From assembly GCA_020630975.1 (NCBI GenBank), contig JAHDID010000049.1, positions 1 to 45,485 of the forward strand: a DNA stretch of 45,485 bases, in the 5' to 3' direction. The notes below the pieces were generated by a model. The model saw only the letters and a program-made list of their open reading frames with translations. It was not told where the DNA came from and made no database searches. Source of the stretch: Verrucomicrobiota bacterium. GTDB taxonomy: Bacteria; Verrucomicrobiota; Verrucomicrobiia; Verrucomicrobiales; DEV007. The translations under genes were made by a program, and so were the position numbers. How positions within the stretch are numbered: the first letter of the stretch is position 1; each line of letters starts with the position of its first letter. Positions 39,177-45,485 of this stretch are shown one piece after another.

Positions 39177-42100
39177 ATGACGGCGGCGAAATCGACCTCG
39201 AAGAAAAAGCGTAGCTCGGCGAAAAAATCGACCTCAAAGGCAGCGAAGAAAACCGCCTCCATCGAGGCGATCCGTGTGCGCGGAGCGGCGCAGAATAACC
39301 TGAAGGGTATCGATGTCGACATCCCGCTGGGCAAGCTGACCGTGGTGACTGGAGCCTCTGGCTCGGGCAAGTCCTCGCTGGCTTTTCAGACCTTGTACGC
39401 CGAGGGCCAGCGGCGCTATGTGGAGACCTTTTCGCCGTACACGCGGCAGTTTTTCGACCGCATGGACAAGCCGGTGGTCGATGCCATCGAGGGCATCCCA
39501 CCGGCGATCGCCATCGAGCAGCAGAATGCGGTCAAGTCGACACGCTCGACAGTGGGCACGATCACCGAGATCAATGACTATCTGAAGCTGCTTTTTCCCC
39601 GCATCTGCCGTGGCTACGACCCACAGACTGGCGAAGAAATCGAGCCGGAGACTCCCGAGTCGATCTACCAAAAGTCGAAGGTGCGCTTCGGCAAAGACGG
39701 CGGCGTGCTGATCTGCTTTTCTATCCGTTGCCCCGAGGGCGCTACCAAAGAGGAGCTCTTCGACTTTCTCCAGCAGCAGGGCTACCTACGGGTCGTCCTG
39801 TTTGGCGAAGTCTATCGCACCGACGAGCCAGAGAGCTACCAGCGCAAGACCATACCCGCCGCCGTCGAGGTGGTGCAGGATCGACTAAAACTCAATCGCA
39901 AAGCACGCGTACTCGAGGCGCTGGAGCGGGCGCTCGACTTTGGCAAAGGCCAGATCGTGATCGCCGATCCCGACATGACCGATCGCATGTCGATCGCCGC
40001 TGGCTGGTGCAATCCCGAGACCGGCACCGAGCTACCCGAGCCGACGCCTAGCCTCTTCTCCTTCAACCACCCTCGCGGAGCCTGTGGCGAGTGCCGAGGC
40101 TTTGGCCGGGTGATCGGTATCGATATCGACAAAGCCCTGCCCGATAAGTCACTCTCCATCGCCGAGGGTGTGGTGCGGCCATTCCAGAGCGAGAGCAACT
40201 ACGAGTGCCAGGATGAGCTGGAGCGCGCCGCCCGCCGCCAGGGCATCAGCCTAGTCACCCCATTCGACGAGCTGCCGAAAAAGGAGCAGGACTGGATCGT
40301 AAATGGCGAGACCGACGACGAGGAAGAGGCCTTCATGCAAGGTCTGTGGTACGGTGTGCGCGGATTCTTCCGCTGGATGGAGAGCCGCAGCTACAAGATG
40401 CACGTACGCATCCTGCTCAGCCGATTTCGCAGCTACACCGCGTGTGAGGTCTGCGGCGGCAGCCGATTGGTCCCGGAGGCCCAGTATTTCAAAGTCGAAG
40501 GTAAAACGCTACATGAACTCTGGCACATGCCTATCGATGAGTTGCTCGAATTCTTTCAGAAAAAAGTGAAGCTACCCAAAGGCGATCGTGCGGCTCAGAC
40601 GATATATGATGATGTCTGCAATCGCCTGCACTACCTCACCGAGGTAGGCCTGAGCTACCTGAATCTCGACCGCCCTACCAAAACCCTATCTGGCGGCGAG
40701 ATCGAGCGGGTCAATCTGACTACCTGCCTAGGGGCCAATCTCACAGGCACCCTATTCGTACTCGACGAGCCAACCGTAGGCCTGCACCCGCGCGATGTAC
40801 ACAAGCTGATCGGAGTGATGCACCGCCTACGTGATCTGGGTAATACCCTAGTCGTAGTCGAGCACGAGGAGTCGGTGATCCGCGCCGCCGATCGCCTGAT
40901 CGACATAGGCCCCGGTCGAGGCGAGACCGGCGGAGATCTGGTATACGACGGCACCGGCTGTGCCGATGGTGCCACGGCCCTCCGAGCGCTTAAGAAATTC
41001 CCCAAATCGCTCACCCTAGAATATCTATCAGGTAAAAAGACCATAGAGATACCCGACCGCGAGCGCACACCTAGCGACTGGATCGAGGTAAAACGTGCCA
41101 CCCAGCACAATCTAAAGAAACTCGATGTAAAGATACCACTAGGTGTCTTCTGCGTGGTCAGCGGTGTATCCGGCTCGGGCAAATCGACCCTAGTCCACTC
41201 CGTACTCTACGAAAACACCGCCCGCCTACTCGGCCAGGGTGGCGAGGAGCAGCCCGGTGCGTGCAAAAAGATAACCGGGGCCTCAAAACTCAGCCAGGTG
41301 GTGATGGTCGACCAATCGCCTTTGTCGAAAACCCCACGCTCCACACCCGCTGTGTATACAGGCGTCTTCGAGCAGATCCGCAAGCTATTTGCCGAATCTC
41401 TAGATGGCAGCAGTCGGGGCGTGACACCCGGCTATTTCTCATTCAACTCCGGCCACGGTCGCTGCGAGCGCTGCCTAGGTACTGGTTTTGAGAAAGTAGA
41501 GATGCAATTTCTCTCCGACCTCTTCGTGACCTGCCCGGAGTGCGAGGGTAAGCGCTTCACCCCCGAGGCACTAGAGATACAGCTAGAGGGCAAAAATATA
41601 CACGACGTGCTCAGCCTCACCGTAGCCAGTGCGATCGAGTTTTTCCAAAAGATAGACAATCGCAAGGCCGCCAAAGTAGTCGAGGGACTCGAGCTACTCG
41701 CAGATGTCGGCTTAGGCTACCTACGCCTCGGCCAGCCACTGACCACCCTGAGCGGGGGAGAGAGCCAGCGCCTGAAGCTAGTCGGTCACCTACTAGAGAA
41801 TCGACCTGCCAAAACCAAGCGAGCGAGTAAACAAAAGAAAAAGCCCAGCCTGCTCATCTTTGACGAGCCGACCACGGGCCTCCACTTCGACGATGTACAG
41901 ATGCTGCTGCGGGTATTCGACCAGCTAGTCGAGGCGGGCGATAGCGTACTAGTGATCGAGCACAATCTCGATGTGATCAAATCCGCCGACCACGTCATCG
42001 AACTAGGGCCCGGCGCAGGCATACACGGCGGCACCGTATGCTTCACCGGCACGCCCCAACAGCTAGCCAAACAAAAGAAATCGGAAACCGGCAAGTACCT

Positions 42101-44855
42101 AGCCCCATATTTCGACTACAGCACCGCCATCGTCGAGGAAGCACCCGACTTGAATAGGGTACACAAAAATTTGAATAGGGTACAATCTGGAGTGAATAGG
42201 GTACAATCGCCAGAAAACGCCATCGTTCTCTCTGGTGCTCGCGAGAACAACCTCAAAAACGTCGACCTCACCATACCACGAGATCAATTCGTGGTGGTAA
42301 CTGGCCTCTCCGGCTCAGGCAAATCAACACTCGCCTTTGATATACTTTTTGCCGAGGGGCAGCGTCGCTTTCTCGATAGTATGTCTACCTACGCACGGCA
42401 ATTCGTCGAGCAGATGGAGCGGCCAGATGTCGACCAGGTAGCCGGTCTACCACCCACCGTAGCGATCGAGCAACGCATCTCTCGTGGCGGTGGTAAATCC
42501 ACGGTCGCCACCGTCACCGAGGTCTGGCATTTCCTGCGCCTTTTGTATAGCAAAGTCGGCATCCAATACTCGCCCGACACGGGGAACCTGGTGCAGAAAC
42601 AAAGCATAACCGCCGTCGTCAGTCAGGTGCGCGACGCTGCCAAAAAATCTAAGAAACCCATCTGCCTACTAGCACCAATCATCAAAGGCCGCAAAGGCTA
42701 CCACACCGAGGTAGCCGAGTGGGCAGGCAGACAGGGCTACACTCGCCTATTCGTAGATGGCCAGTTTCAAGACGTAGAGGGCTTCCAACGACTAGCGCGA
42801 TTTAAAGAGCACTTCATCGATGTGGTAATCGAGGAGATCGATGCCAAGGCTAAAGTAGACGACATCCGCGAAGCTGTGGAAGCCGCTGTAAAGATAGGCA
42901 GAGGTACCGCCCGCTACCTAGATGGCAAAAACAAACTACAAGTCGTCTCCACCGAGCGCTGCGATCCCGAGACCGGCCGCTCCTTTGAGGAGCTCGACCC
43001 ACGCCTATTCTCCTACAACTCCCCACACGGCTTTTGCCCCACCTGCCGCGGCTACGGCACTGTAGAAAAACACCCCACCTATGCCGACGATAAACACGCC
43101 GAAAGCCAGCTCGATGCCGAGCTGCGCGAGGAGTATCGCCGTAGTAAAGAAAAGGGCGAAACCGTGCCCTGTACTGACTGCCACGGCGGTAGGCTAAACG
43201 AAGTCGCCCGCTGGGTACGGGTAGGCGATCTCGGTATCCACGAGGTAGCGGCCATGTCCGTCAGCGAAGCCAAAGACTTCATCGGTAAACTCAAGTTCAC
43301 TGGTAGCGATGCAGTGATCACCCGCGACATGCTGCCCGAGATCGTACAGCGACTCCACTTCATGGAAGAGGTAGGCCTAGGCTACCTACAGCTAGACCGT
43401 AGCGCCACTACCCTGAGCGGCGGCGAGAGCCAGCGCATACGCCTAGCCGCTCAGCTAGGGTCGAATCTACGTGGCGTGCTCTATGTATTAGACGAGCCGA
43501 CTATCGGCCTACACCCGCGCGACAATGCCAAGCTACTCGACACCCTGCGCAGCCTACAGGAAAAGGGTAACAGCCTAGTCGTAGTCGAGCACGACGACGA
43601 GACCATCGAGCGCAGCGACTACCTGATCGACTTAGGTCCCGGTGCTGGCGAGCTAGGCGGCGAGGTCGTCTGGCAGGGCCAGCCCACGGGGCTCTCGAAA
43701 GTAACGAAAGAAACCGCCGAGCGCTCGCCCACTGCCCGCGCCATCGGCCAAAAGCTTTCGCACCCACTCAATGGCACCCGCCGCAAGCTACCAGCTGCCA
43801 ACAAGGCCGAAGGCTGGATCAAGATAACCGGCGCCCACGCCAATAACCTAAAGAATATCAACGTCCGCATCCCGGTAGGCCGACTCACCGTGATCGCCGG
43901 TATCTCCGGCAGCGGCAAGAGCAGTTTCATGCGCGGGGTATTGAAACCCGCCGTCGAAAGCGAGCTCAAGAAAAAGCGCAAAGACTACAAAGCCCCCGAG
44001 AAACTCTGGAAATCTATACAAGGAGCCGACCAGATCGAGGCCCTATACGAAGTCGACCAAAGCCCAATAGGCAAAACCAGCCGATCCACTCCGGCGACCT
44101 ATGTAAAAGTGTTCGACGAAATACGCAAAGTCTTTGCCCAGCTCCCTGAGTCCCGCGCCCGTGGCTATACCGCCAGCCGCTTCTCTTTCAATACCGAAGG
44201 CGGCCGCTGCGAGCCGTGCAAAGGCAACGGCTCCATCAAGCTAGAGATGAACTTTCTCCCCACCAGCTACGTCGAGTGCGAGGAGTGCCGAGGCCGCCGC
44301 TACAACAGCGCCACTCAAGAAGTGCTCTACGATGGCAAATCCATCGCCGACGTCATGGATATGTCGATCGCCGAGGCCGCCGAGTTTTTCCAAAGCCACA
44401 GCAAAATCCACCGCACTCTCAGTCTACTCGCCGACACCGGACTAGGGTACCTACGCCTGGGCCAAGCCAGCCCCACCGTGAGCGGCGGCGAAGCCCAGCG
44501 GATTAAGCTAGTCACCGAACTCACCAAAGGCATCGGCCGCGCCAACAACGCCCGCCTCCGCCAAAACCGCGCACCCAAGAGCAATCTCTACCTCATCGAA
44601 GAGCCCAGCATCGGCCTCCACGCCGAGGACGTCATCCGCCTGATCCACATCATGCACCGCCTAGTCGACGACGGCCACACAGTAGTCGTGATCGAGCACA
44701 ACCTAGAGATCATGGCCGAGGCCGACTACCTAGTCGAGATCGGTCCCGAGGCTGGAGATATGGGCGGCAAGGTCGTAGGAGCTGGCAAGCCAGAAAAAGT
44801 GATCCAAGCGAAGGAAAGCCGGACAGGAGAATTTTTAGGCCGGTTGATCGGGTAG
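39177..44855 (+). CDS. uvrA: Double-length excinuclease ABC subunit A
   Basis: A 1892-aa fusion of two UvrA-like halves, about twice the usual 940 aa; similar giant UvrA is known in Chlamydia. UvrA recognises DNA lesions for nucleotide excision repair. Four Walker A motifs are seen: GASGSGKSS (59), GVSGSGKST (663), GLSGSGKST (1043) and GISGSGKSS (about 1575). Four signatures: LSGGEIERV (Gln replaced by Glu), LSGGESQRL, LSGGESQRI and VSGGEAQRI, each with a DEP or EEP Walker B. Zinc-finger CxxC pairs occur in all four parts (CGECRGFG, CERCLGTG, CPTCRGYG, CEPCKGNG). The N-terminus is Lys/Ser-rich (res 4-25). The linker between halves carries three in-frame heptads, NRV-containing, at 992-1012, encoded by the 21-bp repeat. 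Confidence 0.97.
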   Translation: MTAAKSTSKKKRSSAKKSTSKAAKKTASIEAIRVRGAAQNNLKGIDVDIPLGKLTVVTGASGSGKSSLAFQTLYAEGQRRYVETFSPYTRQFFDRMDKPVVDAIEGIPPAIAIEQQNAVKSTRSTVGTITEINDYLKLLFPRICRGYDPQTGEEIEPETPESIYQKSKVRFGKDGGVLICFSIRCPEGATKEELFDFLQQQGYLRVVLFGEVYRTDEPESYQRKTIPAAVEVVQDRLKLNRKARVLEALERALDFGKGQIVIADPDMTDRMSIAAGWCNPETGTELPEPTPSLFSFNHPRGACGECRGFGRVIGIDIDKALPDKSLSIAEGVVRPFQSESNYECQDELERAARRQGISLVTPFDELPKKEQDWIVNGETDDEEEAFMQGLWYGVRGFFRWMESRSYKMHVRILLSRFRSYTACEVCGGSRLVPEAQYFKVEGKTLHELWHMPIDELLEFFQKKVKLPKGDRAAQTIYDDVCNRLHYLTEVGLSYLNLDRPTKTLSGGEIERVNLTTCLGANLTGTLFVLDEPTVGLHPRDVHKLIGVMHRLRDLGNTLVVVEHEESVIRAADRLIDIGPGRGETGGDLVYDGTGCADGATALRALKKFPKSLTLEYLSGKKTIEIPDRERTPSDWIEVKRATQHNLKKLDVKIPLGVFCVVSGVSGSGKSTLVHSVLYENTARLLGQGGEEQPGACKKITGASKLSQVVMVDQSPLSKTPRSTPAVYTGVFEQIRKLFAESLDGSSRGVTPGYFSFNSGHGRCERCLGTGFEKVEMQFLSDLFVTCPECEGKRFTPEALEIQLEGKNIHDVLSLTVASAIEFFQKIDNRKAAKVVEGLELLADVGLGYLRLGQPLTTLSGGESQRLKLVGHLLENRPAKTKRASKQKKKPSLLIFDEPTTGLHFDDVQMLLRVFDQLVEAGDSVLVIEHNLDVIKSADHVIELGPGAGIHGGTVCFTGTPQQLAKQKKSETGKYLAPYFDYSTAIVEEAPDLNRVHKNLNRVQSGVNRVQSPENAIVLSGARENNLKNVDLTIPRDQFVVVTGLSGSGKSTLAFDILFAEGQRRFLDSMSTYARQFVEQMERPDVDQVAGLPPTVAIEQRISRGGGKSTVATVTEVWHFLRLLYSKVGIQYSPDTGNLVQKQSITAVVSQVRDAAKKSKKPICLLAPIIKGRKGYHTEVAEWAGRQGYTRLFVDGQFQDVEGFQRLARFKEHFIDVVIEEIDAKAKVDDIREAVEAAVKIGRGTARYLDGKNKLQVVSTERCDPETGRSFEELDPRLFSYNSPHGFCPTCRGYGTVEKHPTYADDKHAESQLDAELREEYRRSKEKGETVPCTDCHGGRLNEVARWVRVGDLGIHEVAAMSVSEAKDFIGKLKFTGSDAVITRDMLPEIVQRLHFMEEVGLGYLQLDRSATTLSGGESQRIRLAAQLGSNLRGVLYVLDEPTIGLHPRDNAKLLDTLRSLQEKGNSLVVVEHDDETIERSDYLIDLGPGAGELGGEVVWQGQPTGLSKVTKETAERSPTARAIGQKLSHPLNGTRRKLPAANKAEGWIKITGAHANNLKNINVRIPVGRLTVIAGISGSGKSSFMRGVLKPAVESELKKKRKDYKAPEKLWKSIQGADQIEALYEVDQSPIGKTSRSTPATYVKVFDEIRKVFAQLPESRARGYTASRFSFNTEGGRCEPCKGNGSIKLEMNFLPTSYVECEECRGRRYNSATQEVLYDGKSIADVMDMSIAEAAEFFQSHSKIHRTLSLLADTGLGYLRLGQASPTVSGGEAQRIKLVTELTKGIGRANNARLRQNRAPKSNLYLIEEPSIGLHAEDVIRLIHIMHRLVDDGHTVVVIEHNLEIMAEADYLVEIGPEAGDMGGKVVGAGKPEKVIQAKESRTGEFLGRLIG
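42149..42207 (-). repeat. Three copies of the dispersed 17-bp motif inside uvrA
   Basis: The motif is inverted relative to the other clusters: core AATAGGGTACA at 42149-42165, 42170-42186 and 42191-42207, period 21 bp. Because 21 is divisible by three, the reading frame is kept and the protein gains LNRVHKN, LNRVQSG and VNRVQSP (residues 992-1012). Reading the minus strand, the spacer after the first copy is CCAG, as at 26191-26194. It lies exactly in the linker between the two UvrA halves. Confidence 0.93.
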
Positions 44856-44869
44856 ATCCAAGAGGCTGG

Positions 44870-44941
44870 CATTCTTCCCATTCCTCCCATTCCTCCCATT
44901 CTTCCCATCACATGGGAGGAATGAGAATAATGGGAATAATG
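44870..44941. repeat. Palindromic array of 9-bp units
   Basis: Four tandem 9-mers of form CATTCYTCC run from 44870 to 44905. After CAT and a short centre, the complementary form resumes as ATGGGAGGAATG, then AGAATAATG and GGAATAATG to 44941. The two halves can pair imperfectly over about 30 bp around a 3-bp loop. It lies between the uvrA stop and the four-helix-bundle gene. It may act as terminator or regulatory hairpin, but has no U-tract. Confidence 0.85.
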
Positions 44942-44981
44942 TCTGGACATCTGCTAAAAAACTGTTCAAAATACCCCTATC

Positions 44982-45446
44982 ATGAAACACACTCCCAGAG
45001 TTGCTCCGCCACGGGGTGACTACAGCACGCTGCTATCTTTTCAAAAGGCCGAGGTGGTCTACGACCTGACTTTTCGCTTCGCGAAAAAATATCTGCAGCC
45101 AGGTGACCGCACTATCGATCAGATGATACAGGCGGCCCGCTCTGGTAAGAAGAACTTGCTGGAGGGGAGCAAGTTCGGTACTACCTCCAAAAAACTAGAA
45201 CTCAATCTAACCAATGTCGCGAGAGGCAGCCTAGAGGAGTTACTAGATGACTACCGCTACTACCTAAGAGTCCGCGACCATGATATCTGGACAAAAGACT
45301 CAAAACAGGCTCTCTACGTGAGAAAACTCGGCCGCCAGCCTGGACTCAGCTATGCCACCCACCTCAAACCCTTTTTCGAAACACGCCCACCAGAGACCAT
45401 AGCCAATATAGCCATTTGCTTAACCCACCAAACTAAGACCATTTAA
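44982..45446 (+). CDS. Four helix bundle suffix domain protein (S23/IVP-like)
   Basis: A 154-aa helical protein. The stretch LLSFQKAEVVYDLTFRFAKK followed by DRTIDQMIQAARSGKKNLLE and TSKKLELNLTNVARGSLEEL is the signature of four-helix-bundle proteins related to the 23S rRNA intervening-sequence protein S23 and to Avd, and in particular the 'four helix bundle suffix' group (TIGR04258 as I recall). The C-terminal 60 residues (YLRVRDHDIWTKDSKQALY and the rest) are the suffix-type extension. Such proteins are small, basic and probably nucleic-acid binding; function is unknown. No 23S rRNA or diversity-generating retroelement is near. It is preceded by the palindromic 9-bp repeat array 40 bp upstream. 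Confidence 0.88.
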   Translation: MKHTPRVAPPRGDYSTLLSFQKAEVVYDLTFRFAKKYLQPGDRTIDQMIQAARSGKKNLLEGSKFGTTSKKLELNLTNVARGSLEELLDDYRYYLRVRDHDIWTKDSKQALYVRKLGRQPGLSYATHLKPFFETRPPETIANIAICLTHQTKTI

Positions 45447-45485
45447 ATAATAAAAACGGTATAATTTTTGGATTTCTGTAGTATG
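45447..45485. other. AT-rich window end
   Basis: After the four-helix-bundle stop the last 39 bp are very AT-rich and include TATAAT at 45460-45465, a perfect -10 hexamer, but no good -35 was found at the right distance. A downstream gene may begin beyond the window. Confidence 0.25.

Follow-up and report, generated by a model that had tools for sequence, protein, structure and literature searches.

A palindromic array of nine-base repeats standing ahead of a gene for a small helical protein raises the question of whether the two form a single system and, if so, what kind of system this might be. The window analyzed here, that is, the whole stretch of DNA, is a contig of 45,485 bases (C55) from a 7.1-Mb genome. 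We put at roughly two in three the probability that array and gene together make up all or the left part of a minimal mobile element, whose sole protein would have the S23/Avd fold and whose repeat unit would depend in length on the protein subfamily.

The window locus

The first-pass annotation had described four CATTCYTCC nonamers that turn into their complement, followed 40 bp later by the start of a helical, S23/Avd-like reading frame, and both descriptions hold: the inverted half runs to 44941 and the ATG lies 40 bases beyond it (Table 1). A scan of the whole window at periods 5-15 returned a sole run scoring at least 12, at 44870-44908 (period 9, score 25), as compared to a best score of 9.5 in 30 dinucleotide shuffles. 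Folded as single-stranded DNA, the array reaches -20.7 kcal/mol (z -6.3, with none of 200 shuffles equally good) in stems broken at roughly 9-base intervals; nine stretches were folded in all, that from L016 being misplaced and hence uninformative.

Table 1. Features at the array-gene locus of the window.
Feature	Positions	Strand	Basis
UvrA-type ATPase, 1892 aa, upstream neighbor	39177..44855	+	ORF translation, profile match
Forward arm of four CATTCYTCC nonamers, TCCCAT core every 9 bp, units in order CATTCTTCC CATTCCTCC CATTCCTCC CATTCTTCC	44870..44905	+	sequence, run scan
Turn between the arms, CATCACATG	44906..44914	.	sequence, folding
Inverted arm GGAGGAATG AGAATAATG GGAATAATG, pairing back onto the forward arm	44915..44941	+	sequence, folding
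S23-fold four-helix-bundle gene, 154 aa, suffix domain cut off	44982..45446	+	weak profile match, model of a relative
One end of a multi-copy sequence, breaking into the gene and closing the contig	45431..45485	.	copies on C141, C116, C97

The array begins 14 bp past the stop of the UvrA-type gene, so that this copy sits behind a protein gene and outside 23S rRNA. In the UvrA-type protein, two stretches belong to the UvrA interaction domain and six to ABC; it is apparently a tandem fusion.

The window protein can be aligned to about residue 150, its full relatives having about 185 residues, and its profile scores stay under the respective cut-offs for TIGR02436 (22.4 bits, cut-off 24) and PF05635 (21.5 bits, cut-off 33.8). 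The suffix domain TIGR04258, for which more than 40 bits are required, reaches 17 bits over positions 1-16 of 49 in this truncated gene. In the earlier designation of a four-helix-bundle suffix gene, then, the four-helix fold stands, on a weak match and the model of a relative, but merely 16 of the 49 suffix positions remain. The suffix domain is cut because the multi-copy sequence begins at about 45431; this sequence recurs at C141:21962-22016, C116:3-55 and C97:30178-30233, and since all four copies reach or nearly reach contig ends, the element to which it belongs is itself unassembled. With its gene truncated, the window copy is probably either dead or dependent on its paralogues.

The fold was assigned through a full-length relative (L048) that is 61% identical to the window protein and whose AlphaFold2 model has a pLDDT of 93.2. 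This model resembles 2gsc_B (Z 16.4) and the S23 protein 2rld_B (Z 14.0), thereby suggesting an S23 fold for the window protein; its similarity to Avd in the complex of a diversity-generating retroelement (8ub7_E, Z 12.0) lies within the background of unrelated helical bundles. Profile searches of the window protein and its relatives found no catalytic domain such as characterizes known transposases, and the window protein and its paralogues gave no match to the Y1 family, their matches being to IVP/four-helix families and, in one case, to a topoisomerase zinc ribbon.

Arrays beside suffix-family genes

Among 387 genomes from the phylum, 207 have a match to TIGR04258. A scan of genome contigs provided suffix loci, taken as the best 80 of 570 confirmed stretches, which by record title belong to Verrucomicrobia, Planctomycetes, Bacteroidetes, Nitrospirae, Desulfuromonadales, Chlorobi and others; as the majority come from metagenome assemblies, single organism names may be wrong. 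The first-pass annotation had named a lack of array enrichment beside homologues as counting against its suggestion, an outcome that did not occur: of the 80 suffix genes, 31 have a period-9 run scoring at least 12 in the gene or within 500 bp of it, versus 2 of 225 distant blocks (Fisher p 2e-18, the near region including the gene itself), and other periods appear near the genes at most twice, save for 22 cases of the harmonic 18. Counted over just the 400-bp flanks, pairs of 5-mers at spacing 9 amount to 13.6 per kb near the genes as opposed to 3.0 far from them, with no comparable excess at other spacings bar the harmonic 18. The commonest pair, ATGGG/CCCAT, occurs near 20 of 76 loci and ATAGG/CCTAT near 19, each being found once in far sequence that is 7.5 times longer. 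In-frame stops had removed four of the 80 loci (L051, L075, L077, L094) from flank and alignment work, and 59 of the remaining 76 make up an alignment (A2). In an enlarged set of 154 suffix loci, 98 have a flank run scoring at least 8 within 400 bp and 56 have none.

The association can also be seen at the level of whole genomes, where a pattern of three CCBAT boxes at 9-bp spacing matches at least 8 times in 47 of the 207 genomes with TIGR04258 versus 11 of the 180 without (p 3e-6), the threshold of 8 having been picked after the counts were seen and the tally made by hand. The pattern is impure, in that it catches simple minisatellites, gives high reversed-control counts in G167, G212, G246 and G033, and probably also picks up GroEL-tail coding sequence. 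Ten of the 11 genomes without TIGR04258 among the 58 with at least 8 matches, including G017 (84 matches) and the complete genome G088, give no match to the family alignment; their arrays may be relics, may have been moved by other proteins, or may be something different. In G088, 46 three-box matches are accompanied by no match to TIGR04258, TIGR02436 or the family alignment.

Two genera were of interest for the dispersal of arrays. Genus g2 was left unused for work on mobility, the pattern matches in three of its genomes being mostly simple minisatellites. In genus g72 (L247, L297), intergenes are packed with several period-9 families, including CACAAAGGA, and two species of this genus whose gene blocks are mostly 90-96% identical differ in their arrays. 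Between G154 and G017 one array differs by exactly 9 bp, i.e., one unit; other places in this synteny comparison differ wholesale, and no clean insertion was found there.

Arrays beside plain four-helix genes

The plain four-helix genes, which served as a control and are recognized by TIGR02436 in 301 of the 387 sampled genomes, carry arrays of another unit length. Our set comprises 113 plain loci after the removal of five suffix-type loci, 25 of them from eight genomes picked for arrays or paralogues and 88 from high-scoring matches. Within 400 bp and in flanks only, runs scoring at least 12 have period 7 in 57 of the 113 loci versus 15 of 232 distant 800-bp blocks and period 8 in 10 versus 1, and period 9 was found at none of the 113 loci versus 4 distant blocks. 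As many as 231 of the 232 far blocks derive from 60 longer loci, for which alone the period-7 counts are 28 of 60 near versus 15 of 231 far (p 3e-12); the period-7 arrays of the far blocks would fit dispersed copies. At a score of 8, and with 14 cyanobacterial plasmid loci included, the best period is 7 in 95 of 127 plain loci, 8 in 14 and 9 in 5, with no array in 13. Unit length thus follows the protein subfamily, and the suggestion in the first-pass annotation that similar arrays lie beside such genes in other bacteria, borne out by the enrichment at period 9, proved too narrow in that plain genes carry periods 7 and 8.

The arrangement of the arrays is characteristic as well. The downstream array is an inverted copy of the upstream one in 61 of 65 plain loci (three are direct and one is a tie), and an inverted partner within the same flank is found in 59 of 96 array-bearing suffix flanks versus 15 of 142 plain ones. 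The median array length, suffix and plain loci compared, is 4.3 and 4.6 units. Plain genes between inverted period-7 or period-8 arrays can be inspected in L333-L450 and L451-L464. A scan of the plain loci for four short motifs of 23S rRNA, which is a weak test of rRNA context, gave a single motif in each of L371 and L443 and none in the other loci, and one plain protein searched against 50,697 phage records gave no match.

Matching of arrays and proteins

The arrays of a locus resemble one another more than arrays drawn from different loci. For suffix loci, the cosine similarity within a locus is 0.511 between upstream and downstream arrays as compared to 0.138 after shuffling (n=33), 0.391 versus 0.127 between upstream and in-gene arrays (n=15), and 0.297 versus 0.128 between in-gene and downstream arrays (n=11); the corresponding upstream-downstream similarity in plain loci is 0.577 versus 0.052. 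Array similarity also climbs with protein identity (Mantel r 0.405, p 0.0005, for n=88 suffix loci), the 154 suffix loci having been reduced to 146 by taking out near-identical proteins and to 88 by requiring a flank array and enough length. A partial Mantel test on flank composition gave r 0.410 (p 0.0005, n=88), and plain loci show the same tendency (r 0.322, p 0.0005, n=114). Repeat and protein therefore covary, and this covariation, together with the enrichment beside homologues, supports the earlier suggestion of a linked repeat-plus-protein system, with the proviso that the loci compared lack phylogenetic independence.

Arrays also occur inside suffix genes. In the 119 of 154 proteins that could be counted, the other 35 having no landmarks, 20 period-9 runs lie in a single loop region between the W and AN landmarks (9.9 kb), the N part (39 kb) having 2 and the part behind the loop region (20 kb) 11, and six other periods taken as a control give no runs apart from 3 of period 12. 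The W-AN region holds a loop at 118-124 between two short helices in the model of the full-length relative, and the nine-base units preserve the reading frame.

Paralogues and solo arrays

The genome of the window contains three paralogues with three different nonamers, plus solo arrays. Both full-length paralogues of the window protein, on C87 (62% identity) and C110 (49%), are bordered on either side by a nonamer palindrome of their own, of the TATAGGTC and GATCGGTC types, respectively. The full paralogues L011 and L010 exceed the TIGR02436 cut-off with 28.9 and 31.5 bits and score 67.6 and 78.7 bits for TIGR04258, L011 remaining below the PF05635 cut-off at 27.4 bits. The C-terminus of the C110 protein is a topoisomerase-type zinc ribbon (PF01396, 40.5 bits); at L011:1483-2196, the product is a suffix-family protein with a fused C4 zinc ribbon of the topoisomerase I type, possibly a nucleic-acid-binding tail.

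The window nonamer is also present without a gene on C17, C122 and C144. The three-box pattern matches 14 times in this genome and not at all in the reversed control, compact solo elements such as GCTATAGGTCCTATTCGGCCTATACGACCTATAGC being among the matches, so that palindromic repeats here both flank genes and are dispersed, as REPs are. With ORFs chosen, crudely, as the longest nearby, 7 of 11 array loci lie -4 to 31 bp from the 3' end of a neighboring ORF; of the remaining four, one is 77 bp past a 3' end and 23 bp ahead of a 5' end, two are ahead of 5' ends and one is inside an ORF of 966 aa.

Filled and empty sites

One plain protein matches 37 plasmid records, 31 of them cyanobacterial by name, and we examined 14 cyanobacterial records near the top of this list. 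The 14 genes stand between unrelated neighbors, often within operons (nrdB/nrdA, cas6/cas4 twice, cas10/cmr3, transporter, tra), and a period-7 run scoring at least 10 occurs in at least one 200-bp flank at 13 of the 14 loci, the 14th having period 8. The four-helix elements between CRISPR-associated genes (cas6/cas4, cas10/cmr3) of cyanobacterial plasmids are L452, L454 and L456.

In six comparisons of filled and empty sites, all from the plain branch, relatives have the same site without gene and arrays together. The clearest case is plasmid C of Trichormus variabilis (L459), whose element of 423 bp is missing from Microchaete plasmid01 (L465): the flanks are 98.9 and 97.5% identical and overlap in the empty site by exactly five bases, GTAAT, a clean 5-bp target duplication. 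The comparison of Nostoc ATCC 53789 pNsp_a (L464) with Nostoc C057 (L472) yields TTCTA with one adjacent base different, probably a target duplication too. Relative to their empty partners, L451, L455, L461 and L462 have bases replaced or lost and no clean duplication. In another plasmid, L470, the Trichormus site is a gap of 132 bp that holds a heptamer array but carries no gene annotation. With regard to the traits of insertion sequences, most plain loci have inverted ends, and the six comparisons gave one clean and one probable duplication; the array-gene units appear to be mobile. All of this evidence concerns the plain, period-7 branch, no empty site having been obtained for nonamer elements; the nonamer branch would be mobile by analogy.

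Alternative explanations

The most serious alternative is that the protein is a resident RNA-binding regulator, which binds the hairpins of its own and of solo arrays in transcripts and controls their stability or processing without being mobile. The closeness of 7 of the 11 own-genome array loci to ORF 3' ends, on the crude choice of ORFs, would suit such a role, as would the fold relative Avd, which to judge by the title of 8ub7 is part of an RNA-protein complex. The RNA of a period-7 element points in the same direction, given that the arms of the L459 element (433 nt with its duplications) pair around the ORF with z -3.5, none of 100 shuffles being as good. Such a regulator would not, however, account for near-identical plasmids that lack gene and arrays together, nor for the same kind of unit in unrelated operons, and we consider it improbable; a mobile element that acts on RNA as well would be compatible with these observations.

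Alternatively, a Y1/HUH transposase (RAYT) might move the arrays, which would be ordinary REP-type elements, and the four-helix gene would be a bystander. The arrays are indeed palindromic, dispersed, extragenic and gene-flanking like REPs, as described in PMC3116915, and the genome of the window has 16 Y1_Tnp matches. Nevertheless, among whole-genome loci 35 of 73 suffix genes have a period-9 array nearby, as compared to 2 of 30 Y1_Tnp genes; 4 of 16 genomes searched (G361, G266, G017 and G154) have no Y1_Tnp match despite 150, 91, 84 and 30 pattern matches; and the arrays covary with the four-helix protein, all of which makes this explanation very unlikely.

Replication slippage, by which the arrays would be minisatellites tied only indirectly to four-helix genes, fits the change by one whole 9-bp unit between G154 and G017 and the length of some arrays (run score 141), yet it leaves unexplained the contrast between near and far sequence, the subfamily-specific period, the inversion of plain arrays and the covariation, so that we find it barely credible. 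An accessory defense or toxin-antitoxin module carried on plasmids deserves equally little credence, for although 3 of the 14 plasmid copies lie between CRISPR-associated genes, three proteins gave no match to PADLOC families at E up to 0.1 and the other neighbors are nrd, tra, transporter, transposase and integrase genes.

Proposed mechanism

In the mobile-element reading, the ends of the element would be arrays of a short unit whose length follows the protein subfamily: suffix proteins would have 9-bp units, often with a palindrome inside a single end, and plain proteins 7- or 8-bp units, in an array on one side of the gene and an inverted array on the other. The protein may bind its own array as an oligomer, each subunit occupying one of the consecutive units, the array most likely being bound as a folded single strand of RNA or DNA, and the bound oligomer could thereby keep both ends of the element together. 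We propose a ring reading the array unit by unit because 2gsc has five chains and its family, as we assume, forms pentamers. An activity that could not be recognized in the element, and that might be a host nuclease, a reverse transcriptase or an unrecognized site of the protein, would then bring the unit into intergenic sites, either by copying it or by cutting and pasting; in the one clean case the target would have a 5-bp stagger. Gene-less copies would persist as solo hairpins, often behind the 3' ends of genes.

Relation to known systems and significance

By family, the system is nearest to the intervening sequences (IVSs) of 23S rRNA, which are stem-loops with an ORF. It shares with those that encode an IVP/S23 ORF (PF05635, TIGR02436) the protein family and fold, and here too the ORF is enclosed by paired inverted arms. 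Unlike IVSs, the window copy lies outside rRNA, the arms are tandem arrays of 7-, 8- or 9-bp units, cognate solo arrays exist elsewhere, and empty sites lie between protein genes. Short tandemly repeated repetitive (STRR) sequences are heptanucleotide arrays of heterocystous cyanobacteria that are not known to be tied to any protein. They resemble the heptamer arrays on Nostoc, Calothrix and Anabaena plasmids, a likeness that concerns relatives of the window locus; in contrast to STRRs, the pair of arrays here encloses a four-helix gene. The heptamer branch probably includes the cyanobacterial STRRs. Avd of diversity-generating retroelements has a related fold, but two plain proteins score 28.5 and 29.8 bits against its model (NF033474), below the cut-off of 80, and neither three suffix proteins (E up to 0.1) nor the window protein (E up to 1) match it.

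The closest functional parallel is REP/RAYT (TnpA-REP), in which palindromic extragenic repeats flank one gene, are dispersed without it and co-evolve with the protein (PMC8266576, PMC3116915), a protein thus having cognate dispersed palindromes (PMC3116915, PMC8266576, PMC3733652). These features are shared by the present system, which is nonetheless no member, since the partner is an S23-fold bundle instead of an HUH enzyme and the ends are tandem arrays whose unit length goes with the subfamily. Palindromic elements of Rickettsia, which as cited in PMC3733652 lie in frame inside ORFs, have a parallel in the own-genome nonamer array within the 966-aa ORF, except that the preferred in-gene place is here the loop of the partner gene itself. 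Searches of the open-licence literature, which were not aimed at heptamers, STRRs or cyanobacteria, found no link between four-helix genes and arrays, which does not establish that the system is absent from print; its parts are known.

A broader proposition, to which we give somewhat less than even odds, is that S23/IVP-fold proteins and their cognate 7-, 8- or 9-bp arrays make up a single class of minimal mobile elements that is very widespread and would spread as protein-bound hairpin RNA or single-stranded DNA by borrowed catalysis, a ring of protein reading one unit per subunit. Its descendants would be the STRR heptamers, the ORF-bearing IVSs of 23S rRNA and many of the anonymous repeats between genes in Verrucomicrobia, Bacteroidota and others. 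The mobile-element reading, if true, would provide a function for a very common bacterial protein family (TIGR02436), explain where a large class of short tandem repeats came from, and introduce mobile elements of a new kind, made of one small, non-enzymatic-looking protein and ends of short repeat units. With unit lengths of 7, 8 or 9 as the readout of the subfamily, the recognition of nucleic acid by protein could be tested by swapping partners. At L415, the octamer TGGGACTA beside a plain gene is one base short of the TATGGGACT-kind nonamer of suffix genes and might thus connect one unit length with another.
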